In this document: one piece after another, positions 51,941 through 64,000 of the stretch
Numbering within the stretch: the stretch's first letter is position 1
Layout: every line of letters starts with the position of its first letter
NCBI GenBank assembly: GCA_024400305.1
Contig: JAKSMX010000005.1
Coordinates: 57,616-121,615, forward strand
Origin: Bacteroidales bacterium
GTDB taxonomy: Bacteria > Bacteroidota > Bacteroidia > Bacteroidales > F082
Length of the DNA: 64,000 nucleotides
Direction: 5' to 3'
Position numbers and translations under genes: made by a program
The notes under the pieces: generated by a model
What the model was told of the DNA's origin: nothing
Databases searched by the model: none
The model's input: the letters and a program-made list of their open reading frames with translations, nothing else

Positions 51941-52033
51941 GAACCGCATAGCGGTTCCACATCCGTAGCACATGGATTTTACATGTGGAAATGAATAGTA
52001 ACAATGAACCGCATAGCGGTTCCATATCCGTAA
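51941..52033. repeat. Two further copies of the palindromic intergenic repeat (CGCATAGCG type)
   Basis: gaaccgcatagcggttcca followed by (c/t)atccgta occurs at 51941-51967 and 52006-52032. The stem is aaccgc/gcggtt, against aatcgc/gcgatt at 43670: both stem strands changed together. A small hairpin cacatg/catgtg lies between the copies. Confidence 0.8.
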
Positions 52034-52037
52034 CAAC

Positions 52038-52952: not shown

Positions 52953-52978
52953 AAATATTTAAGCCTTTTCCGCCTCAA
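52953..52978 (-). pseudogene. Remnant of the 5' end of a sigma-factor gene
   Basis: On the minus strand TTG 52978 starts MRRKRLKYL..., whose first eight residues are those of the sigma factor at 61157 (MRRKRLKYF). The DNA shares a 19-bp identical stretch (aaatatttaagccttttcc). It lies 78 nt after the first TPR gene, the place the sigma gene has behind the second TPR gene. The homology stops at once, so only a few codons remain. Confidence 0.6.
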
Positions 52979-53056: not shown

Positions 53057-55051
53057 CTATTCACCTAACCTCCCCTTCCCTTCATACTTCTTCGCCATCC
53101 GCTTCTTCCCTATCTTCTTGTAAAAATTCGCGACATGGGCACATGTCGTTTTGTATGTTCCACGATATATCTCATTGTTTTCATCATAAAAAGTCTTTGC
53201 GATATTATATGCTTTCAGAGTATATTGTTCACCTTTTTCCGTGTCACCGAGGGCGAAACAGGCCTTTCCCATGCGGACGTAACAGTTAATGAGATGAAAT
53301 TTGTAAATTCTCAACCTGTCGGCCGATTTCTCATAGATTTCCATGCCTTTGTTGTAATGTTCGAAAGCCCCGGTGTAATCTTTCCTGCTGAAGAACACAT
53401 CGCCGTACGTCTCGTTCGCCGAAGCGTAAATCTCCTCATAACATCCGTTGTCGCCGCCGTATTTCACGCACAAATCCAGAAGTTTCTCGTATGTCGCGGA
53501 AGCCTCATCATCCTCTCTGAGAAACACCTCCGCCTTTGCGAGCCGGTAAAGCGCATACAGATACACATCCAATTCGTAATTGACGAACTCGTGTGCATCC
53601 ATGACCTTGAGCGCATCAACAAACGCGGTTTTGGCTTCCTGATAATTCTTAAGTTCCATGTAGATGTTGCCTTTTTTCGTTTTGAAATCCGCGATTCTCG
53701 GGGCATATTTCTTCGGATCCTGCGGCATGATGCGTGTTTCTATCTCGATGGCCTTGTCGATACATGCCATGGCGGAGTCGTTTTTCCCTTGGTCAGACAG
53801 GATGATGCTCAGGCTCGACAGCGAGTTGGCGTATTCACCGCTGAATTTATCATCAGCCTCATAAAGTTTCCTCCTTATCTCGACAGATTTTTTTACGACT
53901 TTCTCCGCCTTCTCATACTCACAATTCTCATAATACATGGTGCCGAGTTCATGAATCGGATAGTTTATAAGCACATAGAAATACGAGTCGCTCACCTCGT
54001 TGCCGAGTCCGTCTTCGGCTGATTTTATCGCCTTTTCAAAAAAACTGCGGGCTCTGTCAAGATCCTTGATGCGGATGACCATACGACCCATATTCAAATA
54101 TATGTATGACATGTGAATCTTTGAACTGCAATTTCTTTCGGCGATCATCCCGTACTTCATCACTTTTTCGATATTGACCTCATCGGAGAAGAACCTGACC
54201 GTCTGTGCGAGAACATAGTTGTTGGTCGAGTCGGCTTCTACTATTTTTTCGTACATCTGTCCAATGATTCGTCTGTTTTCCGGTCCGCCCACGACAGTCC
54301 TGATGTTGATTTCGTCAAGCATCCCTGGAATCAGTGCTTTTATTGAAGCGTTGACCTCATTTCTCTGCAAAATCTTATTTGATAGTCGTTCAAAAGAATT
54401 GTAGTTCACATACACATTCAATGCGCCTTCGATGTCGCCGTTGTCAAGGGCGGCGAAAGCGCGGCGGCCCACCGAGTCCATGTCGTCTTTGTTAATCCTC
54501 GAGAACTTGTCGGCATATTCCGCAATCTTCGAATTGGCGTTTTTCAGGTCTTCTTCAGCTTTCACGGCTCTTTGCTCGTATTCCGCAAGCGGAATCTCGT
54601 TTTTTGCGAGCTGCGACTTCAACTCCTCAATCTGTTTCTTGTAAACGCCCACCTGATAGTTGTCGAATATCTCGTAATAGCTGGCGCGCGCCTCCGCAAG
54701 TTTCGCAGGCGGCGCTACGACAATCTTCAATGTGTCTTTTTCGGTCAGGACGATGCCATCCCTAATCAGTTGGTTGTTCACCACTTCGTAGCCCGACTTG
54801 TAAACACGGAGGTTATACACCACGTCGCCTTTCTTCTTCTTGGCGAAATTCAGGATGAAGACCCCGTCATTGCCGCTGACGGCTGGCTGCACGTCATCCG
54901 ACGAGACGGCCTCGATGCTCGCGCCGGAGACAGTCTTGCCATTTGAATTAATCTCAACTACCACGCCGACCTGCCGCACCTGGGCAGACAGGGTGCAAAC
55001 ATTTAACAGACAAACTGTTACAAGAATAATTTTAAGATATTTTGCTGTCAT
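53057..55051 (-). CDS. Secreted coiled-coil/TPR protein, module copy 1
   Basis: The 664-residue product begins with a signal peptide (MTAKYLKIILVTVCLLNVCTLSAQ). Residues about 25-105 form a carboxypeptidase regulatory-like domain (GVVVEINSNGKTVSGASIEAV). A charged coiled coil follows at about 115-180, then at least eight TPR-like helical repeats to the end. ATG 55051 is preferred to 55066 because the promoter (-7 at 55081) would start RNA near 55067. The N-terminal 90 residues are identical to those of the paralogue at 61192-63201 while the repeats have diverged. Function unknown; a periplasmic or surface sensing scaffold is one possibility. Confidence 0.85.
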   Translation of the reverse strand: MTAKYLKIILVTVCLLNVCTLSAQVRQVGVVVEINSNGKTVSGASIEAVSSDDVQPAVSGNDGVFILNFAKKKKGDVVYNLRVYKSGYEVVNNQLIRDGIVLTEKDTLKIVVAPPAKLAEARASYYEIFDNYQVGVYKKQIEELKSQLAKNEIPLAEYEQRAVKAEEDLKNANSKIAEYADKFSRINKDDMDSVGRRAFAALDNGDIEGALNVYVNYNSFERLSNKILQRNEVNASIKALIPGMLDEINIRTVVGGPENRRIIGQMYEKIVEADSTNNYVLAQTVRFFSDEVNIEKVMKYGMIAERNCSSKIHMSYIYLNMGRMVIRIKDLDRARSFFEKAIKSAEDGLGNEVSDSYFYVLINYPIHELGTMYYENCEYEKAEKVVKKSVEIRRKLYEADDKFSGEYANSLSSLSIILSDQGKNDSAMACIDKAIEIETRIMPQDPKKYAPRIADFKTKKGNIYMELKNYQEAKTAFVDALKVMDAHEFVNYELDVYLYALYRLAKAEVFLREDDEASATYEKLLDLCVKYGGDNGCYEEIYASANETYGDVFFSRKDYTGAFEHYNKGMEIYEKSADRLRIYKFHLINCYVRMGKACFALGDTEKGEQYTLKAYNIAKTFYDENNEIYRGTYKTTCAHVANFYKKIGKKRMAKKYEGKGRLGE
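54786..55045 (-). repeat. 260-bp block identical to 62936-63195
   Basis: Every base of 54786-55045 matches 62936-63195 (offset 8150). Just outside, in the direction of the gene interior, similarity drops sharply. It encodes the signal peptide and regulatory-like domain of both TPR proteins. Confidence 0.9.
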
Positions 55052-55073
55052 AAAACAAATAAACAATGAGCTG

Positions 55074-55081
55074 CAAAATTA
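55074..55081 (-). promoter_or_regulatory. -7 element of TPR gene copy 1
   Basis: TAATTTTG on the minus strand, 23 nt before the ATG at 55051. The corresponding element of copy 2 is at 63224-63231. Confidence 0.6.
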
Positions 55082-55154
55082 ATAATTTTTCCGAATCAGG
55101 GAAAAAACTTTTCAGACAACGATCGTATGAATTTTTTTCATCGCAGCATGCACA

Positions 55155-55403
55155 TCAAGTCACACAATTATCCTGCTCACCTGATTTGCTTTTTTCATTC
55201 AGCAGTGCCGAATATTCCGCAAAAAAGTCATAATCAAGCAATTGCGATATTTTTAACAACAAGTCGGTATCGATATATTTCCTATGGAAAATCTTATAGA
55301 CGTTGTCGCGACAAAATCCCAACTTGTCAGAAAACCACTTGACACAGTGCCCCTGCTCGTCAAGTTTCTCACGTATTTTCTCACCAATGTGAATCTCTTC
55401 CAT
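55155..55403 (-). CDS. Small XRE-type (helix-turn-helix) regulator, module copy 1
   Basis: The 82-residue protein starts MEEIHIGEKIREKLDEQGHCVKWFSDKLG and continues FCRDNVYKIFHRKYIDTDLLLKISQLLDYDFF, a compact five-helix Cro/C1-type DNA-binding fold without a second domain. It is about 84% identical to the protein at 63306-63554. The frame could extend to 55451, but that part differs mainly at non-silent positions between the copies, so ATG 55403 is used. It lies 103 nt upstream of the TPR start and probably controls that gene. Confidence 0.85.
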   Translation of the reverse strand: MEEIHIGEKIREKLDEQGHCVKWFSDKLGFCRDNVYKIFHRKYIDTDLLLKISQLLDYDFFAEYSALLNEKSKSGEQDNCVT

Positions 55404-55755
55404 ATAAAAGTGTTTTAACAATAGAGGGAGTGAGACTTCGAAATCTGACAAAATTTTTCAAAAATTTTTCAAATCATTGTTAATTTCAACATTGGAATGA
55501 CATTTCAGAGGGGGAGGGAACTTTTCAAGTGGTTTGGAATTGATAAGTTAGAAAAGAATTAGGTACAATATCCGATGTTCAGGATAGATTTCGCACAAGA
55601 AGGCGGTTTCAAGGATTCTGAAGGTTTGAAGAAGATAACTCCATCATATTTAGATGTGTGGAAGGAGTTTTAGACGTTTGAAAAAAAATTTCAAAAAACA
55701 GCTCCAAGTCACAAAAGATTTATATCTTTGCAGCCGGTATCAAAGACAAAAAGTT
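55404..55755. other. Intergenic region of 352 bp between XRE and Rpn genes
   Basis: It contains an imperfect palindrome near the XRE start (agacttcgaaatct, 55433-55446), AT-rich sequence, a 32-codon plus-strand open frame (55575-55673, MFRIDFAQEGGFKDSEGLKK, ending VWKEF) that may be the tail of a lost gene, and the Rpn promoter. Confidence 0.5.
55723..55730 (+). promoter_or_regulatory. -7 element of the Rpn-family gene
   Basis: TATCTTTG followed by CAGCCG, 25 nt before the ATG. The same TATCTTTGCAGCCG precedes the AAA-ATPase gene at 63771. Confidence 0.6.
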
Positions 55756-56628
55756 ATGACTACATTATTCGACTACAGTGGAACACGTTACATCAATCCG
55801 CTTACAGACTTTGGTTTCAAGAGAATCTTCGGTGACAAGGAAGTGATGAAGGCGTTTCTCACCGACCTGCTCCAGCCAAGTTCTCCGATAAAGGATCTAA
55901 TTTTCCTTGACAAAGAGTTAGGTCCTGACAATGAGACATTTAGAGGTGTCATATACGACCTGCGCTGCATGACCGAAGACGGAGGCGAATTTATCGTTGA
56001 GATGCAAAACCGCGGACAGGAACATTTCAGCGAGAGAATCCTTTATTATCTGTCACGTTCGTTTTCAAACCAGAAAGGACATAGTGACAAGGATTGGGAC
56101 TATAGCCTGAAACCGATTTACGGCGTTTTTTTCCTGAATTTTCACATGAAAGGGTTCAAACCTCGTTACTTGAGGACAATTCAGATGACCGTCAGCGAGA
56201 CAGGCGAGTTGTTTTCTGACAAACTAAAGGCTTTTACATTAGAGATTCCCGATTTCAAAGACAAGTCAGAAGATTACCCAAAGACAATGATTGAATACTG
56301 GCTGTACATCTTGGCTAACATGCAGAATTTCAAGGGGCAATTGCCTTTCACACAAAAACAGCCTGTATTCAAGAAGGTGGGCATGATTTCAGAAATAGCT
56401 CACCTGACCCCCGATGACCTACGGTCATACGACAAGAACATGGACACCATCCGCACGAACAACGAGGTCATGAGTTTTGCCAAAAATGAAGGCAGGAGTG
56501 AAGGTATAAAAGAAGGTATAAAAGAGGGAATCCATAAGGTCGCCGCAAGCATGAAAAAAATGGGACTACCGATGTCGCAAATCACACAGGCGACCGGACT
56601 GTCAGAAGATGAAATTGCCGCATTGTAA
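55756..56628 (+). CDS. Rpn-family PD-(D/E)XK nuclease / putative transposase
   Basis: The 290-residue protein begins MTTLFDYSGTRYINPLTDFGFKRIFGDKEVMKAFLTDLL, the hallmark of the Rpn (recombination-promoting nuclease, PDDEXK_2) family. The catalytic pattern is visible as D/E residues in IYDLRCMTEDGGEFIVEMQNRGQ (D...ExQ). The C-terminus has the repeated GIKEGIKEGI hinge and a short helix typical of the family. Related proteins cleave DNA and promote RecA-independent recombination; many act as selfish or toxin-like genes. Start 55756 is used instead of 55654. Confidence 0.88.
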   Translation: MTTLFDYSGTRYINPLTDFGFKRIFGDKEVMKAFLTDLLQPSSPIKDLIFLDKELGPDNETFRGVIYDLRCMTEDGGEFIVEMQNRGQEHFSERILYYLSRSFSNQKGHSDKDWDYSLKPIYGVFFLNFHMKGFKPRYLRTIQMTVSETGELFSDKLKAFTLEIPDFKDKSEDYPKTMIEYWLYILANMQNFKGQLPFTQKQPVFKKVGMISEIAHLTPDDLRSYDKNMDTIRTNNEVMSFAKNEGRSEGIKEGIKEGIHKVAASMKKMGLPMSQITQATGLSEDEIAAL

Positions 56629-56670
56629 TCACAAAGTTCTTTCACCTCCTCTCGTATGGACAAACAAAAA

Positions 56671-56698
56671 GGCTGACGCATCACAAGGAGCGCCAGCC
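56671..56698. terminator. Bidirectional terminator between Rpn and Omp28-like genes
   Basis: ggctgacgc/gcgccagcc (56671-56679, 56690-56698) pairs except for one central mismatch and stands between convergent genes. Confidence 0.7.
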
Positions 56699-56727
56699 TC
56701 TCTAATCTCTTATCTATAATCTCTAAA

Positions 56728-58488
56728 CTATCTTGCGATAGTGACTTTCTGCGTCTTCACAGCACCGTCGTTGGCAACGACCTTGACGAAATAAACGCCA
56801 TTGTCGAACGAAGCGACGTTTACAACTGTTTTGACAGAACCTTCGACGTTGGCGACCATCTGACCGAGAGAGTTGTAAATTTCAACCGCCTTGATGTTTT
56901 CACCTTCAACGAAGATTGTGTTGTTAGCCGGGTTAGGATAGACTTTCATGCCGTCCAGTCCGTTCTCGCCGATCAAATCCTGACCTTTGTTAATCCTGAT
57001 GAGTTCTGAACCATGTGCGCCGAAACCGCCGTTGTCCTGATCCTGACCGAGGATATACACATCATTGACTTTGATCTTGTACCAGCCTTCACCGTATGTG
57101 CAGCAGATACCGTTGTCGTTGCTGTCGTAGATGTTGAACAGGTAATCAGCACCTGTAGGGACATCTTCGATTGTCTCGACATGAAGCTGTGTTGAACCCG
57201 ATGCGATGAGGTGTGCGTACGGGCCGCCTTCCGCGATGACTTCACCGAGTGAGTTGACGACATCCCATGTGGTCTGTTCGCCGAACTGGTCCTGATTGAT
57301 GTAAATCTTCATTGTTGTTGTTGCACCATCAACCGGCTCCGTCTCCGTCCATTCATCGCAGACTGCTGTGAAATTCACCTCGTAAGGATAATCCTGACCG
57401 TTGGCCTTCACGATTGTGAGCTTGCCGGCGTGCGTTCCGAATGGAATCTCCATGTCAAAAGAGACATCTTCCTTCTGTCTCGGTTCGAGCACACCGTTCC
57501 ATTCATACTCTTCGACAGCGTTGCCGACTTCGACTTTATACTGGATTGATGTGAGGTTTTCTGTTCCGCCGTTCTGCAAGCCGAAATCGAATGTCTTGAC
57601 CTGGCTGCAGACCGCCACGGCACGCTGGCTGACGCTCTTAATGACAGGATAGATAGGCTCGTTTGAACCCTCCGATTTCTCAAGCATGTTGGCCGAAAGG
57701 ATATTGCGTGCAGGGGTGTTCGTCGTTCTTGCGCAGACGAAAGCGAGGAAGTGGACGTTTTCAATATCAACTTCGACACCATTCGGTGAGCCGATCATCT
57801 CAGGAATAGCGTATGTATATTCCTTTGTGATGAGTGTGCCAGCTGTCGTAGGGGTGATCGGGTCGCCCCATGCGCTCTCGCCGATCACGTCGCGGAGGAT
57901 ATGCATGTGGCAGTACTGACCGCCGACCCACTGCGACGGGTTTGAAGAGCCACCGCTCTGTGAACCCCAGATGCTGTCCTGAAGCATATAGACAGTGAGA
58001 TAGTTCGTTGACTCTGTGCTGTTTCCGGTGTAATAGACCTCAACTGTGATGCTGGCTTCGCGCGTCTCCGGGTCAATGACGACCTGTCCGCCGACGTTAA
58101 GCTCTGAAGCCTGTGCCAGATGCTGTGAAGTGAGGCCGTTCCATGCGCTGCGGCTCTGGCCGGATGATGTCGAACGGTTGACGACACCCGTCGGATAACC
58201 ACTGATGGAGAATCCGCCGTGGATGGTGTTGCCGTCCGTAGTGTTGAAGTTCGGATAACTTGTCGGAGCATAGCCACCAGCGTGAATGTTGACCGCCCAT
58301 ACCCTGTCAGGATTATTGGCGCAAATCTGGTTTGCAATAAGGTGTCCGTCAGGGCAATAGCCGCAGTTACGGCCCGTGAACTCTTCAATGACGACGTTCC
58401 TGTTTGCAGGCTCCGTCGATACGAACATCTGTGCGCTTGCCATGAAGCCGGCTACAAGTCCTAATACGAGAAATGTAAATTTTTTCAT
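56728..58488 (-). CDS. Omp28-like thioredoxin-fold protein with type IX secretion sorting tail
   Basis: The 586-residue protein has a signal peptide (MKKFTFLVLGLVAGFMASAQ). The Omp28-like thioredoxin-fold domain follows (residues about 25-230) with EEFTGRNCGYCPDGH, a CGYC redox motif. The middle is beta-rich. The last 75 residues (MKVYPNPANNTIFVEGENIKAVEIYNSLGQMV..., GVYFVKVVANDGAVKTQKVTIAR) form a type A T9SS sorting domain. It is shorter than, and only distantly similar to, the protein at 37418. Likely a surface or outer-membrane-associated protein of unknown role. Confidence 0.9.
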   Translation of the reverse strand: MKKFTFLVLGLVAGFMASAQMFVSTEPANRNVVIEEFTGRNCGYCPDGHLIANQICANNPDRVWAVNIHAGGYAPTSYPNFNTTDGNTIHGGFSISGYPTGVVNRSTSSGQSRSAWNGLTSQHLAQASELNVGGQVVIDPETREASITVEVYYTGNSTESTNYLTVYMLQDSIWGSQSGGSSNPSQWVGGQYCHMHILRDVIGESAWGDPITPTTAGTLITKEYTYAIPEMIGSPNGVEVDIENVHFLAFVCARTTNTPARNILSANMLEKSEGSNEPIYPVIKSVSQRAVAVCSQVKTFDFGLQNGGTENLTSIQYKVEVGNAVEEYEWNGVLEPRQKEDVSFDMEIPFGTHAGKLTIVKANGQDYPYEVNFTAVCDEWTETEPVDGATTTMKIYINQDQFGEQTTWDVVNSLGEVIAEGGPYAHLIASGSTQLHVETIEDVPTGADYLFNIYDSNDNGICCTYGEGWYKIKVNDVYILGQDQDNGGFGAHGSELIRINKGQDLIGENGLDGMKVYPNPANNTIFVEGENIKAVEIYNSLGQMVANVEGSVKTVVNVASFDNGVYFVKVVANDGAVKTQKVTIAR

Positions 58489-58594
58489 TTTTTCTTTGAT
58501 TATTTGTTAATGATTATGACTTTTTGAGATTTTCTCATTTATCAGAAGAAAGAGAAGACCGTTTTTTCGCTCTCCTCTTTCCACTTTCCACTTA

Positions 58595-59626
58595 CTAAAG
58601 TTCAACTTCTGTGTTCCAGCCGAACTCGTCTTTCTCTGCGCCTGTCTGGATGCCGCGGAGCTTGTTGTAAAGCTTCTGGCTCCACGGACCCGGCTTGCCG
58701 TCACCGAACTGGTATGACTTGCCTGTGTCAGGGTCATCAATGCGTGAGATAGGGCTGATGACTGCTGCCGTTCCGCATGCGCCGGCTTCCTCGAATGTGG
58801 CGAGTTCCTCTTCAGCGATTGGACGGCGTTCGACCTTCATGCCGAGGCTTTCTGCGAGCTGCATCAGGCTCTTGTTGGTGATTGAAGGAAGAATTGATGT
58901 TGATTTCGGAGTGATGTATGTATTGTCTTTGATGGCGAAGAAGTTGGCTGCGCCGGCTTCGTCGATGTATTTCTTTTCCTTCGCGTCGAGATAGAACTCG
59001 CATGCGTACTGACCGCCGTGGCAGGCTTCCATGTGGGCGCGCAATGATGCCGCGTAGTTGCCGCCGACCTTGTAGATACCTGTTCCGAGAGGTGCCGAAC
59101 GGTCGTACTTGCGTGTGATGACGTATGGGTTTGCCATGAAACCGCCCTTGAAGTACGGGCCCACAGGTGTGGCGAACACGACGAACAGATATTCATCAGC
59201 CGGTTTCACGCCGACGCGGGCGCCTGTGCCGATGAGCAACGGACGGAGGTACAACGAAGCGCCGCTCTCGTATGTCGGGACGAACTCCTTGTTGACCTGG
59301 ACGCACTTGATCATGGCTTCTTTGAATTTCTCCATCGGGAAACGTGGCATGCAGATGCCGTCGCATGATGTCTCGAGACGTTTTGCATTCTCTTCCATGC
59401 GGAAAATGCGGACCTTGCCGTCAACGCCGCGGTGAGCCTTCAAGCCCTCGAAAGCCTCCTGACCATAGTGCAGGCATGTGGCAGCCATGTGGATGTTGAT
59501 TGTCTCTTCAGAGCAGATTTCAAGTTCGCCCCACTCACCATTACGGTAATAGCAGCGGACGTTGTAGTTGGTTTTCAAATAACCGAACGGGAGTGAACCC
59601 CAGTCAATGTCTTTAGTGTTTTGCAT
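58595..59626 (-). CDS. ilvE: Branched-chain amino acid aminotransferase
   Basis: The 343-residue enzyme is fold-type IV PLP aminotransferase. It shows CLHYGQEAFEGLKAHRG, GTGIYKVGGNYAASLRAHMEA (catalytic Lys in this region: KVGGNYA), EKKYIDEAGAANFFAI and ILPSITNKSLMQLA. It interconverts Leu, Ile and Val and their 2-oxo acids. ATG 59626 (MQNTKDIDWGSLPFG) matches the family start; 59674 would add an unrelated segment. A Bacteroidetes -7 box is 46 nt upstream. Confidence 0.96.
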   Translation of the reverse strand: MQNTKDIDWGSLPFGYLKTNYNVRCYYRNGEWGELEICSEETINIHMAATCLHYGQEAFEGLKAHRGVDGKVRIFRMEENAKRLETSCDGICMPRFPMEKFKEAMIKCVQVNKEFVPTYESGASLYLRPLLIGTGARVGVKPADEYLFVVFATPVGPYFKGGFMANPYVITRKYDRSAPLGTGIYKVGGNYAASLRAHMEACHGGQYACEFYLDAKEKKYIDEAGAANFFAIKDNTYITPKSTSILPSITNKSLMQLAESLGMKVERRPIAEEELATFEEAGACGTAAVISPISRIDDPDTGKSYQFGDGKPGPWSQKLYNKLRGIQTGAEKDEFGWNTEVEL

Positions 59627-59671
59627 GATATTTTTATTTTTTGAGTTGATAAATTCATTTTTTTCAAATTG

Positions 59672-59679
59672 CAAAGATA
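59672..59679 (-). promoter_or_regulatory. -7 element of ilvE
   Basis: On the minus strand TATCTTTG. Leader of about 40 nt. Confidence 0.6.
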
Positions 59680-59740
59680 CAATTTTTTTTATAATGAACC
59701 AGATACTTCAAAATATTTTAAATATCTCGAAAACCGCAAT

Positions 59741-60580
59741 TTATTTTTCACATCTCAACACGACATTCCATCCGCAAGTGTTTGACGGACGATATGTTCC
59801 GGTCCAAAGCTCGAAGCCGTCCTTATAAATATTCATCCTTTGGCTCTCCATCTGCTTCGCCATCGGTATGTCAATACGGAAGCTGCCAGTTTCGTCAGTC
59901 TGCGCCTTGATGTCCTGCACGATTACAGTCGCCCCGGCCACGGGGGTTCCCTGTTCGTCGATGACGTTGCCGAAGATGACGCCGAGGCTGTTGTCGCGGC
60001 GCAACGGCAGCGTCAGTGATTTCCTTATCTCCAGCGTCGTGTCAACGGTCTGATAGCCAGACGATTCGAGAACGATGTGCATCATCTTGTACTTGTCGCC
60101 GAAAGAAATGTTTTCTATCAGGACAGTCATGTCTTCCCTGCTCACCGGCACCCTGACAGGTTCATTTCCGTTGATACTATATGTGACATTGCCTTTTTCA
60201 AACGGAAGCGACGGGATGGCAAATCCGGGGTCTTCCGTCACATTCACCTTGACATCCAATGGCTTGAAGACATTCCAGCAGATGACGAAAACGAGCGACG
60301 CCGTCGCGAACAGCGCACTCAGGTAAGCCAGCCGTCTCTTGCGTTTCGCCTTGCCGTCGATGATGCCGTCCATGACGAGGCGGCGGACAACGATGTCGTA
60401 TGCCATTTCAGAGAACCGCTCCGCCGCAATCTTCTGGAACGCTATCGCGCGGCTCGCCTCGACAGCCTCCTCCAATGCCTTTTCATTTGACGCGAAATAT
60501 GTCTTGACGAGGCCTTTTTCATCCTCGTCGGCCATTCCGTCAAGATAGCGGGCAAGCAGCTCTTCCGGTAACTTATCCAT
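59741..60580 (-). CDS. Membrane protein with regulatory-like domain, probable anti-sigma factor
   Basis: The 279-residue protein has a cytoplasmic N-terminus of about 90 residues (LPEELLARYLDGMADEDEKGLVKTYFAS, like the start of many anti-sigma factors), one membrane segment (YLSALFATASLVFVICWNVF) and an outer part with a PEGA-like region (about 140-195) and a carboxypeptidase regulatory-like domain (about 200-275, GVIFGNVIDEQGTPVAGATVIVQD). ATG 60580 overlaps the stop of the sigma gene (ATGGATAA). Its place and topology suggest it holds the sigma factor inactive. Unlike FecR-type anti-sigma factors it lacks a FecR domain. Confidence 0.75.
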   Translation of the reverse strand: MDKLPEELLARYLDGMADEDEKGLVKTYFASNEKALEEAVEASRAIAFQKIAAERFSEMAYDIVVRRLVMDGIIDGKAKRKRRLAYLSALFATASLVFVICWNVFKPLDVKVNVTEDPGFAIPSLPFEKGNVTYSINGNEPVRVPVSREDMTVLIENISFGDKYKMMHIVLESSGYQTVDTTLEIRKSLTLPLRRDNSLGVIFGNVIDEQGTPVAGATVIVQDIKAQTDETGSFRIDIPMAKQMESQRMNIYKDGFELWTGTYRPSNTCGWNVVLRCEK

Positions 60581-61157
60581 TCTTTCTGACATATCTTCCG
60601 TCAATTAATTTCTTCAACTCAACCTTCGCCCTCTTCGAAATAGTATAGACATTTTCGATGCTGACTCCCATGGATCTCGCGATTTCGTCAGATTTCATGC
60701 CTTTCCATTCCGACAAAAGGACGTATTTAAATCTCGCGTTTTCGATACTGTTGATTGCGTCGAGAAGCTCAAAACGCAGCAGATGCGCATTGCCATCCTC
60801 AAACTCAACAATATTCTCGTCAAGCAAAACCGCCTTGTCGTCAGTCGTGGCGACACTTTTCTTCTTCTCATCAAAAAATCTCACCAAGACAGTTGACAGC
60901 CAAGTATCAAGACTTGACAAGAAATTGAACTTCCTCAATTTCTCCCAGCCATTTCTGTGCAAAAATAAATAAAATTCAGTTATCAGTTCCTCTTTTTTGA
61001 CATTAGACGAGAACGTGCGCCTGATGATGAATGAGAAAAGCTTGTCGCAGCGGTAAAACAGAAGGTACTCGATGGCGTCTTCGTCATTGTTCATGACAGC
61101 CTCAAGCAATTCCCTGTCGGACAGCGACCTGAAATATTTAAGCCTTTTCCTTCTCAC
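60573..61157 (-). CDS. RNA polymerase sigma factor, ECF type
   Basis: The 194-residue protein has a sigma region 2-like part (ELLEAVMNNDEDAIEYLLFYRCDKLFSFIIRR) and a C-terminal region 4 (LLSEWKGMKSDEIARSMGVSIENVYTISKRAKVELKKLID) with a helix-turn-helix. Start is GTG 61157, 34 nt after the TPR gene; an internal start is unlikely because the MRRKRLKY start is conserved in a remnant at 52978. It forms an operon with the TPR gene upstream and the membrane protein downstream. Region 2 is divergent, so the assignment rests mainly on region 4 and context. Confidence 0.8.
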   Translation of the reverse strand: MRRKRLKYFRSLSDRELLEAVMNNDEDAIEYLLFYRCDKLFSFIIRRTFSSNVKKEELITEFYLFLHRNGWEKLRKFNFLSSLDTWLSTVLVRFFDEKKKSVATTDDKAVLLDENIVEFEDGNAHLLRFELLDAINSIENARFKYVLLSEWKGMKSDEIARSMGVSIENVYTISKRAKVELKKLIDGRYVRKNG

Positions 61158-61191
61158 CTTTCAGCTCTGCAACTTTATTTCAACACACGTC

Positions 61192-63201
61192 TCAACTTTC
61201 AGTTCTCAGCCTTTTGACTTTCTCGCCTATCATCTCGTACTTCTTCGCCGTCCTTTTCTTTCCTATCCTCCTATAGAACTTCGACATTTCGACGCACACC
61301 TTCTCAAAGAGCTCGTGATGTCCGTCGTGGTCTTCATCGTACAGTTCCTTCGCCTTCGCGTAGGCGTTGAGGTAGGCGTTCTCCGCTTTTTCCTTGTCAT
61401 TCATCGCGAGATATGTCATGCCGATGCAAGCGTAGCAATTCGGCAGGTCCTTCCTCAGCTTCATCACCTTCCCGCACGATTTCTCCATTATGTCCTTAGC
61501 CGTCTCAAAATGGATTATCGACGATTCATAGTCTTTTTTTCTGTAGAGCACGTTGCCGTAAAGCACTTCGGCGAGTTCAAGGTCCACGTCGAGCACACCT
61601 TTGTCGTTGTTGTCGGTGTAGAATCTGACCACGCGTTCGCACACCACCGCCGCCTCGTCGTATTCTTTAAGGAGCCACTCGGCTTTGGCGAATTGCCTAT
61701 TGGCATACATATACAGCCTGTATTCGCCTTTGGGCAGATCGGTGTCCTCATAGATAGACAATGCTTCGGCATAGACTTCCTTCGCCATGGCGAAATCATC
61801 CATCTCCATGCAGATATTGCCCTTCAGCGTGTGGAAATGGGCGAACAGCGTCGCGAACTCCTTCGGGTCGTTCTGGTACGTGCGTCTCAAGACCGTTATC
61901 GCCTCATCGATGGCCGCCATCGCCTCGTCGTACTTCAGCTGGTCGCACAGGATCACGGAGAGTGCCGAGAGCGAGTTGGCGTATTCGTCGTCGTAGGCGG
62001 AGTCGATCTCCGAGAGACGTCTCCTGACCTCGATGGCCTTTCTGAATGTCTGCTCCGCATCCTTGTATTCGCAGGCGTTATAGTACATCATGCCGAGCGC
62101 GTGCAAAGGGTAGTTAATCTTGTGCAGGTAGAACTTCTCGTCCATGCCTTTCTTCTTTTCGGCGTCGATGATAGCCATCGACTTCTCAAAATACAGCCTG
62201 CTCTTGTCAAAATCCTTGGCTTCCATATAAGCTCTGCCGAGATACATGAAGATGGAGACCAGGGCGAACTGGTGGTCGCTGTTCCGTTCGGCCATCCTGC
62301 CGTAGCTGATGACCTTGTCGATGTCGATCTCTTCGTCGAAGAACCTCACCGCGTCGTGGATGTAAATGGCGTTTGTCGTGTCCGACTCGACGATCTTATC
62401 GTACATCTGTCCGACGATCCGCCGGTTCTCCTTGCCGCCGACGAGCATACGCAGCTCTATCTCCTCATACATCCCGGGAATCAGCTCACTGATGGAGGCG
62501 TTGGCCTCGTTGCGCTGGTCGATCTTGAGCGACAGTCGTTCGAGGGAGTTGAAGTCGGAATAGACCTTCAACGCGCCTTCGATGTCGCCGTTGTCGAGAG
62601 CGTCGAATGCGTGACGGCTCACCGAGTCCATGTCGTCTTTGTTAATCCTCGAGAACCTGTCGGCATAGTCCGCGATTTTCGAGTTGGCGTTTTTCAGGTC
62701 ATTCTCCGCTACCCTGACACGCTCCTCGTATTCGGAGAGTGTTATCTCCTTGCCCGCGAGCTGCGCCTTCAGGCTCTCGACCTGTCTCTTATAGACGCCG
62801 ACCTGGTAGTTGTCGAAGATCTCGTAGTAGTTCGCGCGCGCCTCGGCAAGTTTCGCAGGCGGCGCAAGCACAATCTTCAGCGTGTCGCGATCGGTGAGAA
62901 CCACTCCGTCATTGATCTGTCTGGTGTTCACCACCTCGTAGCCCGACTTGTAAACACGGAGGTTATACACCACGTCGCCTTTCTTCTTCTTGGCGAAATT
63001 CAGGATGAAGACCCCGTCATTGCCGCTGACGGCTGGCTGCACGTCATCCGACGAGACGGCCTCGATGCTCGCGCCGGAGACAGTCTTGCCATTTGAATTA
63101 ATCTCAACTACCACGCCGACCTGCCGCACCTGGGCAGACAGGGTGCAAACATTTAACAGACAAACTGTTACAAGAATAATTTTAAGATATTTTGCAGTCA
63201 T
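61192..63201 (-). CDS. Secreted coiled-coil/TPR protein, module copy 2
   Basis: The 669-residue paralogue of the protein at 53057-55051 has the same signal peptide and regulatory-like domain (first 90 residues identical), a coiled coil (YKRQVESLKAQLAGKEITLSEYEERVRVAENDLKN) and about eight TPR-like repeats that have diverged (for example GMMYYNACEYKDAEQTFRKAIEVRRRL). ATG 63201 is chosen for the same reason as in copy 1. It is the first gene of an operon with the sigma factor and its probable anti-sigma factor, so it may supply the outside signal to that pair. Confidence 0.85.
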   Translation of the reverse strand: MTAKYLKIILVTVCLLNVCTLSAQVRQVGVVVEINSNGKTVSGASIEAVSSDDVQPAVSGNDGVFILNFAKKKKGDVVYNLRVYKSGYEVVNTRQINDGVVLTDRDTLKIVLAPPAKLAEARANYYEIFDNYQVGVYKRQVESLKAQLAGKEITLSEYEERVRVAENDLKNANSKIADYADRFSRINKDDMDSVSRHAFDALDNGDIEGALKVYSDFNSLERLSLKIDQRNEANASISELIPGMYEEIELRMLVGGKENRRIVGQMYDKIVESDTTNAIYIHDAVRFFDEEIDIDKVISYGRMAERNSDHQFALVSIFMYLGRAYMEAKDFDKSRLYFEKSMAIIDAEKKKGMDEKFYLHKINYPLHALGMMYYNACEYKDAEQTFRKAIEVRRRLSEIDSAYDDEYANSLSALSVILCDQLKYDEAMAAIDEAITVLRRTYQNDPKEFATLFAHFHTLKGNICMEMDDFAMAKEVYAEALSIYEDTDLPKGEYRLYMYANRQFAKAEWLLKEYDEAAVVCERVVRFYTDNNDKGVLDVDLELAEVLYGNVLYRKKDYESSIIHFETAKDIMEKSCGKVMKLRKDLPNCYACIGMTYLAMNDKEKAENAYLNAYAKAKELYDEDHDGHHELFEKVCVEMSKFYRRIGKKRTAKKYEMIGEKVKRLRTES
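62936..63195 (-). repeat. 260-bp block identical to 54786-55045
   Basis: Perfect match to the block in TPR copy 1, with sharply lower similarity on the inner side. Confidence 0.9.
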
Positions 63202-63223
63202 AAAACAATTAAACAATGACTTG

Positions 63224-63231
63224 CAAAATTA
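63224..63231 (-). promoter_or_regulatory. -7 element of TPR gene copy 2
   Basis: TAATTTTG on the minus strand, 23 nt before the ATG at 63201, as in copy 1. Confidence 0.6.
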
Positions 63232-63305
63232 ATATTTTTTCCAAATCAAGAAAAAAAATTTTTTCAGACAACGATCGTATGAATTTTTCCATCGCAGCAT
63301 GCACA

Positions 63306-63554
63306 TCAGGTCACACGATTATCCTGCCCGCCAGATTTATTTTTCTTATTCAGCAGCGCCGAATATTCCGCAAAGAAATCATAATCAAGCAACATCGATA
63401 TTTTCAACAGCAAACCAGTGTCGATGTACTTCCTTTGGAATATCTTATAGACGTTGTCGCGGCAACACCCTAACTTGCCAGAAAACCACTTGATGCAGCA
63501 CCCCCGCTCATCAAGTTTCTCGCGTATTTTCTCACCGATATGAAGTTCTTCCAT
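63306..63554 (-). CDS. Small XRE-type (helix-turn-helix) regulator, module copy 2
   Basis: The 82-residue protein MEELHIGEKIREKLDERGCC... has 69 of 82 residues identical to the copy at 55155-55403. Changes lie in the first helix turn, the recognition-helix region (GCCRDNVYKIFQRK against GFCRDNVYKIFHRK) and the C-terminus. It has no other domain. It lies 105 nt upstream of TPR copy 2 and is the probable regulator of that gene. Confidence 0.85.
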   Translation of the reverse strand: MEELHIGEKIREKLDERGCCIKWFSGKLGCCRDNVYKIFQRKYIDTGLLLKISMLLDYDFFAEYSALLNKKNKSGGQDNRVT

Positions 63555-63770
63555 ATAAAAACGTTTTATCAATAGAGGGTGTGAGACTTCAAAATCTGAC
63601 AATTTTTTTAAAAATTTTTCAAACCGTTTCAAATTTCGCAAAATCGTCGCACGAATTTCATAAAACGAGCATCTGTAACCGCAGCCCGCCCATCCGCGAA
63701 GCGATTCACATTGCGCAGCATCACATTAAAAAAATCCTCGCTGAAGCATCGCTGTCTGCCGTACTTTTGT

Positions 63771-63778
63771 TATCTTTG
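63771..63778 (+). promoter_or_regulatory. -7 element of the AAA-ATPase gene
   Basis: TATCTTTG followed by CAGCCG, 22 nt before the ATG at 63801. Confidence 0.6.
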
Positions 63779-63800
63779 CAGCCGAAAAAACATCACAGTT

Positions 63801-64000
63801 ATGAAGTACCCCATCGGAACCCAGACGTTCAGCACCATCATCGAAAACGGGATGGTATATGTCGATAAGACCGCCCTTGTTTACGACCTCGCGCAGAAAC
63901 ATATTTGTTTCCTGTGCCGTCCGCGCAGGTTCGGAAAATCATTGTTAATATCAACGCTTGAAAGCTATTTCAAAGGCGAGAAGGAGCTTTTCAAAGGATT
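63801..64000 (+). CDS. AAA-ATPase-like / PD-(D/E)XK nuclease (DUF1703) protein, N-terminus (partial)
   Basis: The 66 codons in the window begin [24 protein letters not shown] and contain [24 protein letters not shown]. This is the typical start of the AAA_ATPase-like family whose C-terminal part carries a PD-(D/E)XK nuclease-like domain (DUF1703). The Walker A is the family form RPRRFGKS. The rest of the gene lies beyond the right edge. The role of these abundant Bacteroidales proteins is not known; a link to mobile DNA or conflict systems is likely. Confidence 0.85.

Follow-up and report, generated by a model that had tools for sequence, protein, structure and literature searches.

Described systems and the locus under study

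In Bacteroides, the Dma/Das system combines an ECF21 sigma factor with a dual membrane-spanning anti-sigma factor (PMC13088901), and a related pair answers envelope stress and toxins (PMC9308784). The locus analyzed here lies in a 64,000-nucleotide stretch (the window) of contig JAKSMX010000005.1, from a 2.86-Mb, 76-contig assembly of a gut-dwelling Bacteroidales bacterium (GCA_024400305.1). It encodes a small XRE-like regulator; TPR2, a protein with an apparent signal peptide, a regulatory-like domain (CRD), a coiled coil, and tetratricopeptide repeats (TPRs); an ECF-like sigma factor; and a one-pass membrane protein that is its putative anti-sigma factor. The locus resembles Dma/Das in that a Bacteroidota ECF sigma factor has an adjacent membrane anti-sigma factor reaching far outwards. 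However, a long disordered tether and a C-terminal beta-barrel characterize Dma (PMC13088901), whereas the model of the window anti-sigma factor ends in two small beta domains, and beside it is encoded a separate exported-looking protein made of a CRD and a variable C-terminal part, here called CRD-X.

Other described systems share parts of this composition. CASP/Craspase, which is CRISPR-guided and consists of a TPR-CHAT protease, the inhibitor Csx30, and an ECF sigma factor, likewise brings a TPR/caspase-like module together with an ECF sigma inhibitor, but the window CRD-X protein has an apparent signal peptide and no recognized protease domain (PMC10028731). Sigma, caspase, and TPR parts occur together in caspase/EACC2 systems with ECF sigma and TPR genes (PMC8195603), as do sigma and caspase parts in metacaspase operons with sigma factors (PMC3501461); in contrast to the window, the term anti-sigma is absent from the former paper, and no CRD pair is described in the parts of either that were examined. 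PG1058 of the type IX secretion system also joins TPRs and a CRD in one Bacteroidetes protein, but it has a beta-propeller and an OmpA-like domain as well, and the parts of the text examined describe no sigma link (PMC5053529). A literature search by titles and abstract openings found no paper on a sigma/anti-sigma/CRD-X trio. SusC/FecR-type surface signaling offers a further comparison. As judged by structure comparison of the model, the outer CRD of the window anti-sigma factor has the fold of the SusC N-terminal extension (9hfj, 6ytc). Unlike in FecR signaling, no FecR match was found in the anti-sigma factor with Pfam at E 1; no TonB-dependent transducer was recognized by eye among the open reading frames of 50 to 64 kb, where no family search was aimed at one.

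A conserved trio of sigma factor, membrane protein, and CRD-X protein

One scan of genome contigs for a sigma profile, itself based on two peptide patterns, yielded 26 sigma loci. In 25 of them, a CRD-bearing membrane protein follows the sigma factor and an exported-looking protein sharing the N-terminal CRD of TPR2 is encoded beside the pair; the exception, L165, has only a partial anti-sigma match. Among the 25 trios, the C-terminal part of CRD-X is a long TPR array in 6, a short tail in 10, and a caspase in 9, a domain swap that goes with two layouts: the 16 genes of the long-TPR and short-tail types lie ahead of the sigma gene, and the nine CRD-caspase genes lie after the anti-sigma gene. 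The one short tail examined gave a weak TPR match, and the caspase His (SGHG or AGHG) and Cys (DACFSG) motifs are kept in all nine caspase-type loci. A C39 peptidase domain precedes the membrane helix in 9 of the 25 anti-sigma factors, never in the caspase layout, and was not found with Pfam in the window anti-sigma factor. With starts taken from the longest open reading frames, the sigma and anti-sigma genes are spaced by -81 to +23 nucleotides (nt) in 26/26 loci; in the window they overlap by 32 nt from a TTG start, or by 20 nt from the ATG start used by relatives.

A second search, covering 173 genomes of the family, found a sigma match at E 1e-36 or better in 22, and a CRD-X match adjoined it in all 22. 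The two sets overlap, since the seven pairs checked (7/7) proved to be the same assemblies. In line with the earlier note on this DNA, which had tied the TPR protein to the sigma factor and the membrane protein, these counts indicate that the three belong together and that the conserved unit, as far as gene content tells, is the trio. A mobile element as carrier of the trio gained no support: no relative of the TPR protein was found on viral contigs and none of the sigma factor on plasmids.

The ten short-type trios (L144, L145, L147-L149, L151, L152, L157, L159, and L161) have further neighbors in common. An exported-looking protein of ~490 amino acids is encoded ahead of all ten, an LPP-like gene directly follows 8, and in some of these loci DUF4384, caspase, or PEGA/FGE-sulfatase genes lie further on.

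Domains of the three proteins

The TPR arrays are unambiguous in Pfam (best E 4.7e-25). In the structure model of TPR2 (mean predicted local distance difference test score, or pLDDT, of 88), a CRD at residues ~24-112 is followed by long helices (114-183) and a TPR superhelix (~238-667); signal peptides, here and elsewhere, were assessed by eye. The TPR protein gave no peptidase match near the cut-off, the NCBIfam PA2778-family cysteine peptidase reaching E 0.04 to 0.29 over the TPR part, and no CHAT protease domain was found in it, Pfam and NCBIfam returning only TPR and weak helical matches. The membrane protein was modeled over 287 residues with a hydrophobic helix at 87-113, a beta domain at 116-201, and a CRD at 206-287, consistent with a predicted topology in which one membrane helix divides an inner from an outer part. 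Its CRD matched CarboxypepD_reg (1.6e-7) at 32.0 bits, just under the cut-off of 32.3, and NCBIfam SusC/RagA matched the CRD only, at E 0.0037 and far below cut-off. The CRD of the TPR protein had no Pfam score at E 1; profile-profile comparison matched the two CRDs with 92% probability, which bears out the earlier suggestion of matching regulatory-like domains in these proteins and indicates that the CRDs are homologous.

Open reading frames and Pfam likewise agree with the proposal that copy 2 runs into an ECF-like sigma factor and an overlapping one-pass membrane protein. Region 4 of the sigma factor scored above cut-off (Sigma70_r4_2, 29.5 versus 25.7 bits); for region 2, the gene was not listed in a PF04542 search of the genome. 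The NCBIfam sigma70-ECF score was 35.2 bits, under the cut-off of 42.9, and a profile of sigma relatives aligned with Escherichia coli sigma-E (1or7) over positions 10-189 at E 5e-5.

Copy 1 derives from a sigma-linked locus and is mosaic

The window contains two XRE-TPR pairs on the minus strand, 8.15 kb apart as first described; their repeats are spaced by 8150 to 8153 nt. The pair without an intact sigma gene, copy 1, is flanked by pyrF and an Rpn-family gene, and no such insert is present at this place in three sister species (G045, G088, and G086). Its end consists of the TPR-sigma intergenic stretch followed by the eight opening codons of the sigma gene (LRRKRLKY versus VRRKRLKY), it is 94% identical over 2081 bp to the sigma-linked locus of a fourth sister species, G092, and its open frame of 664 codons is intact. 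With these eight sigma codons still beside it, copy 1 is a broken-off copy of a sigma-linked locus; its description as a free-standing second module found no support.

The likeness between the two copies is uneven, a feature that the earlier note did not mention and that is the most informative part of the comparison. Within the TPR gene, identity between the copies is 98 to 100% up to nt ~265, with an exactly identical 260-bp stretch near the 5' end, and only 43 to 60% per 90-nt window from nt 897. From the same point on, copy 1 is 96 to 100% identical per 90-nt window to the sigma-linked TPR gene of G092. At informative sites, copy 1 matches copy 2 at 66/66 before nt 266 and G092 at 642/663 after it, and the breakpoint statistic was reached in 0/2000 shuffles. 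This split, together with the 260-bp identity, shows that the CRD end passed between copies and the TPR part between species.

TPR versions have moved between species

The part that senses for a sigma/anti-sigma pair would ordinarily be expected to evolve together with the rest of the operon. The six TPR genes of the window and its four sister species fall into three C-terminal classes: A (copy 2 and G045), B (G088 and G086), and C (copy 1 and G092). Between classes, the proteins differ by 0.07 to 0.11 over residues 1-216, by 0.25 over residues 217-306, and by 0.54 to 0.57 beyond. For same-class pairs, the proportion of synonymous differences (pS) over residues 331-665 compared with that in sigma is 0.04 to 0.05 versus 0.46, 0.17 to 0.33 versus 0.46, and 0.24 to 0.26 versus 0.42, and different-class pairs are near saturation in the TPR part even where sigma is nearly identical. 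Between G088 and G092, pS is 0.06 in sigma, 0.08 in anti-sigma, and 0.79 to 0.82 in the TPR part. Two species can thus have nearly identical sigma and anti-sigma factors and different versions of the sensing part, the differing version being common to a more distant species as well. The CRD end of this pair differs as well (pS 0.59 to 0.70), so that the exchange took in the whole TPR gene and was not confined to the sensor. Since the TPR part of copy 1 resembles the version of a sister species and its 5' end resembles copy 2, these alignments indicate that TPR versions moved between species, while sigma and anti-sigma stayed. The probable sensing part, of which very different versions have passed between species, thus resembles a receptor in rapid change more than a module that was simply duplicated. 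Of the four nearest named relatives of the window's genome, assembled from metagenomes as Bacteroidales or Bacteroidia, two are titled horse faeces and one is Candidatus Limimorpha caballi.

The pattern of the same sigma with a different sensor is clear in the window's clade. In other branches, where pairs with a sigma identity of 60% or more were compared, L145 and L148 change together (sigma 97%, tail 88%), and the tail is faster between L144 and L145 (sigma 74%, tail 42%) and between L144 and L151 (sigma 82%, tail 55%), the latter a milder form of the clade's pattern.

The XRE regulator and a promoter-like element

The XRE-like proteins matched Pfam weakly (HTH_26, E 0.05 to 0.08). Relatives of the copy 2 regulator (E 1e-5) were found in 93 of the 173 family genomes, with up to 20 per genome, yet these genomes represent just 2 of 16 genera. 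An XRE gene lies somewhere within the fetched stretch (up to 20.6 kb) at 11 of the 26 sigma loci, but not one of the 25 trios has it directly upstream of CRD-X. The earlier grouping of XRE, TPR, and sigma genes therefore stands in one part only: CRD-X stays with sigma (25/26), and XRE is mostly elsewhere. Being multicopy and usually located elsewhere, XRE was rejected as a core part of the system; it is a neighbor, probably outside the relay. At G088 and G086, the closest XRE gene is upstream of two exported-looking genes and a CXXX-repeat cluster for a ribosomally synthesized and posttranslationally modified peptide (RiPP), which ends before the TPR gene (cluster names by NCBIfam, for G086 only of this pair). 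The rule that XRE heads exported-protein operons is unsupported, since a crude script scored only 12 of 32 XRE neighbors as same-strand and exported-looking.

An element fitting TAnnTTTG stands a short way ahead of the start codon in all six TPR genes compared. It reads TAATTTTG in the window and TATCTTTG at the same place in the four sister species. TAnnTTTG is the primary -7 box of Bacteroidetes, and TAATTTTG fits it.

Elsewhere in the same genome, an XRE relative lies ahead of a CXXX-repeat RiPP cluster with peptide, radical SAM maturase, and second maturase genes (L021; C11: 17000-28000). Another is followed by a NusG-like gene and a weak sigma region 2/M48 peptidase fusion (L019; C56: 48000-57000), with a transposase-like gene and a dynamin-like GTPase (below the Pfam cut-off) further on.

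Distant relatives of the sigma factor

For more distant kin, 393 genomes of the order were drawn; a sigma match at E 1e-8 was present in 17, the window's own included, and from the 16 others the nine best loci were fetched. One of these, L175, is the same locus as L146. Their sigma factors are 28 to 41% identical to that of the window (E down to 1.3e-45), and in 9/9 the gene after sigma matches a C39 piece, which Pfam confirmed in three of the four loci examined (but not in L178). Across 18/18 aligned sequences, with one locus counted twice, the Cys, the His, and one Asp of C39 do not vary. Pfam placed effector-type genes near five of the nine: dynamin (L177), M48 peptidase (L178), Hsp70-like (L179), TIR and nSTAND (L180), and TIR-SIR2 (its SIR2 part below cut-off) and nSTAND (L181). 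No strong membrane helix was found by hydropathy in the seven distant members L177-L183. In view of the C39 genes, the conflict-type neighbors, and the missing strong helix, the sigma family may have arisen from conflict regulators of the cytoplasm, with the window's branch an envelope version that lacks C39. At L181 (7035-8036), the gene after sigma joins C39-like and RyR domains and lies upstream of the TIR-SIR2 and nSTAND genes.

A candidate sensor-to-sigma relay and its alternatives

We favor, with a probability of roughly 0.6, an envelope sensor-to-sigma relay with a swappable sensor, in which XRE stands outside and copy 1 is a sigma-less relic. An exported CRD-X protein would use its CRD and coiled coil to dock onto the one-pass anti-sigma factor at the outer CRD module, and its C-terminal domain, a TPR superhelix in the window and a caspase or short tail in relatives, would read a cue. 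Cue-bound CRD-X would then make the anti-sigma factor release the ECF-like sigma factor. The presumed docking end is conserved, whereas the presumed sensing end comes in highly divergent versions, which enter the locus by recombination and pass from one species to another; copy 1 would be a relic that carries another sensor version. The sequences themselves show the conserved trio, the CRD homology, the domain swap, the mosaic gene, and the sigma vestige, while export and docking of CRD-X, the cue, the release of sigma, and a use for copy 1, if it has one, are inferences. Swapping of TPR, caspase, and C39 parts around a single sigma factor also connects envelope signaling with protease and defense modules in Bacteroidales.

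Several observations weigh against this relay or limit its reach. Homogenization of copies 1 and 2 affected the CRD end and spared the sensor. Among the five close species, a second close copy occurs only in the window genome (G086 has one more match, of only 29% identity, and G088 is 83% complete); a standing archive of versions is therefore unsupported. A receptor changed by recombination is an unlikely but more far-reaching reading: in an envelope relay derived from conflict-type (immune) regulators, the TPR sensing domain would be exchanged between the sigma-linked site of expression and a storage copy that lacks sigma, as well as between species, and lineages would alter what the sigma factor listens to with its output unchanged. 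The 260-bp exact repeat and a contig end 446 nt beyond the copy 2 XRE gene raise some doubt about the assembly, touching which XRE pairs with which TPR gene and neither the TPR2-sigma link nor the sigma vestige. All four sister genomes were assembled from metagenomes, the named genomes are labeled MAG or uncultured, and each species is represented by a single genome. The mismatch is reversed between the caspase loci L158 and L160 (sigma 64%, CRD-caspase 85 to 94% identical), and in several pairs of the short-tail and caspase types CRD-X changes about as much as sigma does; for the family as a whole, exchange of versions is not shown to be the rule. Differences between versions are spread evenly over the TPR A and B helices (0.556 and 0.577), and for this reason selection on the TPR groove, or ligand face, was dropped. 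Finally, Pfam found no anti-sigma domain in the window membrane protein, and the model of its first 90 residues is of poor to moderate quality (means of pLDDT blocks, 40 to 77). One anti-sigma relative matched zf-HC2 below cut-off (E 0.055). No anti-sigma-domain entry is among the fold matches listed for the model; the outer domains fill that list, so this is not counterevidence. Searches of solved structures by sequence gave nothing of use for the anti-sigma factor (best E 0.19) and nothing at E 0.01 for CRD-caspase.

Regulated proteolysis is a serious rival, because a caspase or C39 domain lies within or close to 19 of the 25 trios (including L161, with a separate caspase gene), and it could be combined with the relay. 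The CRD-X slot would then hold a protease or an adaptor: caspases would cut the outer part of the anti-sigma factor, or C39 anti-sigma factors would cut themselves, and the window TPR protein would be an adaptor for a protease encoded elsewhere. The motifs kept in all nine caspases, the C39 domains in nine anti-sigma factors of the other layout, and the invariant C39 residues are in keeping with this, and the TPR-CHAT protease that cuts a sigma inhibitor is a precedent (PMC10028731). However, six trios have neither protease, namely L140-L143, which are the closest kin of the window, L149, and L159; the window itself lacks both C39 in its anti-sigma factor and a peptidase match near cut-off in its TPR protein; and an exported-looking caspase and a C39 domain placed before the membrane helix would lie on opposite sides of the membrane. 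On balance we consider this route possible but unlikely. An origin in defense, also compatible with the relay, would make the sigma pair a derivative of cytoplasmic conflict regulators that became tied to the envelope, and the operon an immune-type alarm. The C39 pieces and the effector-type neighbors of the distant loci point that way, but the four window proteins examined had no PADLOC match, no such effector lies beside the window trio, and identity to the five effector-linked kin is only 28 to 35%, leaving this origin doubtful.

Two further accounts bear on the second copy. Plain duplication with neutral decay, in which copy 1 is a dying fragment and its mosaic structure an ordinary, functionless recombination, fits the loss of all but eight sigma codons and the lack of a second close copy in the other close species. 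Against it, copy 1 keeps its long open frame, version sharing recurs in two further species pairs, and in the TPR part copy 1 and G092 differ by a proportion of nonsynonymous differences (pN) of 0.00 to 0.01 and a pS of 0.04 to 0.05, a distance too short to say much on selection; we regard decay as a less than probable but real candidate. The module of the earlier note, in which XRE controls TPR transcription, the two form the functional unit, and one such unit happened to gain a sigma pair, draws on the XRE gene ~104 nt upstream of the TPR gene in both copies and on the 11 sigma loci with XRE in the fetched stretch. It seems highly improbable given that no related trio has XRE directly upstream of CRD-X, that XRE is a multicopy family beside varied genes, and that a promoter-like element of their own precedes the TPR genes, including those of relatives with no adjoining XRE.

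Features of the window and their neighbors

Table 1. Positions in the window of the genes and elements discussed in the text, all on the minus strand (HTH, helix-turn-helix)
Feature	Position	Strand	Basis or remark
XRE-like small HTH protein, copy 2, 82 amino acids	63306..63554	-	Weak HTH_26; multicopy family; probably not in relay
CRD-coiled coil-TPR protein, copy 2 (TPR2), sigma-linked, TPR version A	61192..63201	-	Pfam and structure model
ECF-like sigma factor, 194 amino acids	60573..61157	-	Pfam, NCBIfam, profile alignment
Putative anti-sigma factor: helical inner part, one membrane helix, two outer beta domains	59741..60604	-	
XRE-like small HTH protein, copy 1	55155..55403	-	Weak HTH_26
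CRD-coiled coil-TPR protein, copy 1 (TPR1), TPR version C	53057..55051	-	Without intact sigma gene after it
TAATTTTG element ahead of TPR2	63224..63231	-	22 nt ahead of start codon
TAATTTTG element ahead of TPR1	55074..55081	-	Same as at TPR2
Sigma gene-start vestige beside copy 1	52955..52978	-	LRRKRLKY versus VRRKRLKY
260-bp exact repeat, copy 1 side	54786..55045		Signal peptide and most of CRD
260-bp exact repeat, copy 2 side	62936..63195		

Both XRE-TPR copies have divergent neighbors: a gene for an Rpn-family recombination-promoting nuclease (55654-56628) and an AAA-ATPase_like gene (63711-64000). A piece of ~59 bp upstream of the copy 1 XRE gene resembles the region of the AAA-ATPase_like gene. 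Between the two copies is encoded an Omp28-like protein with a type IX secretion sorting domain (56728-58488). Just ahead of pyrF, a near-identical pair of 30-bp stretches (93%; 51941-51970 and 52006-52035) contains GAACCGCATAGCGGTTC.

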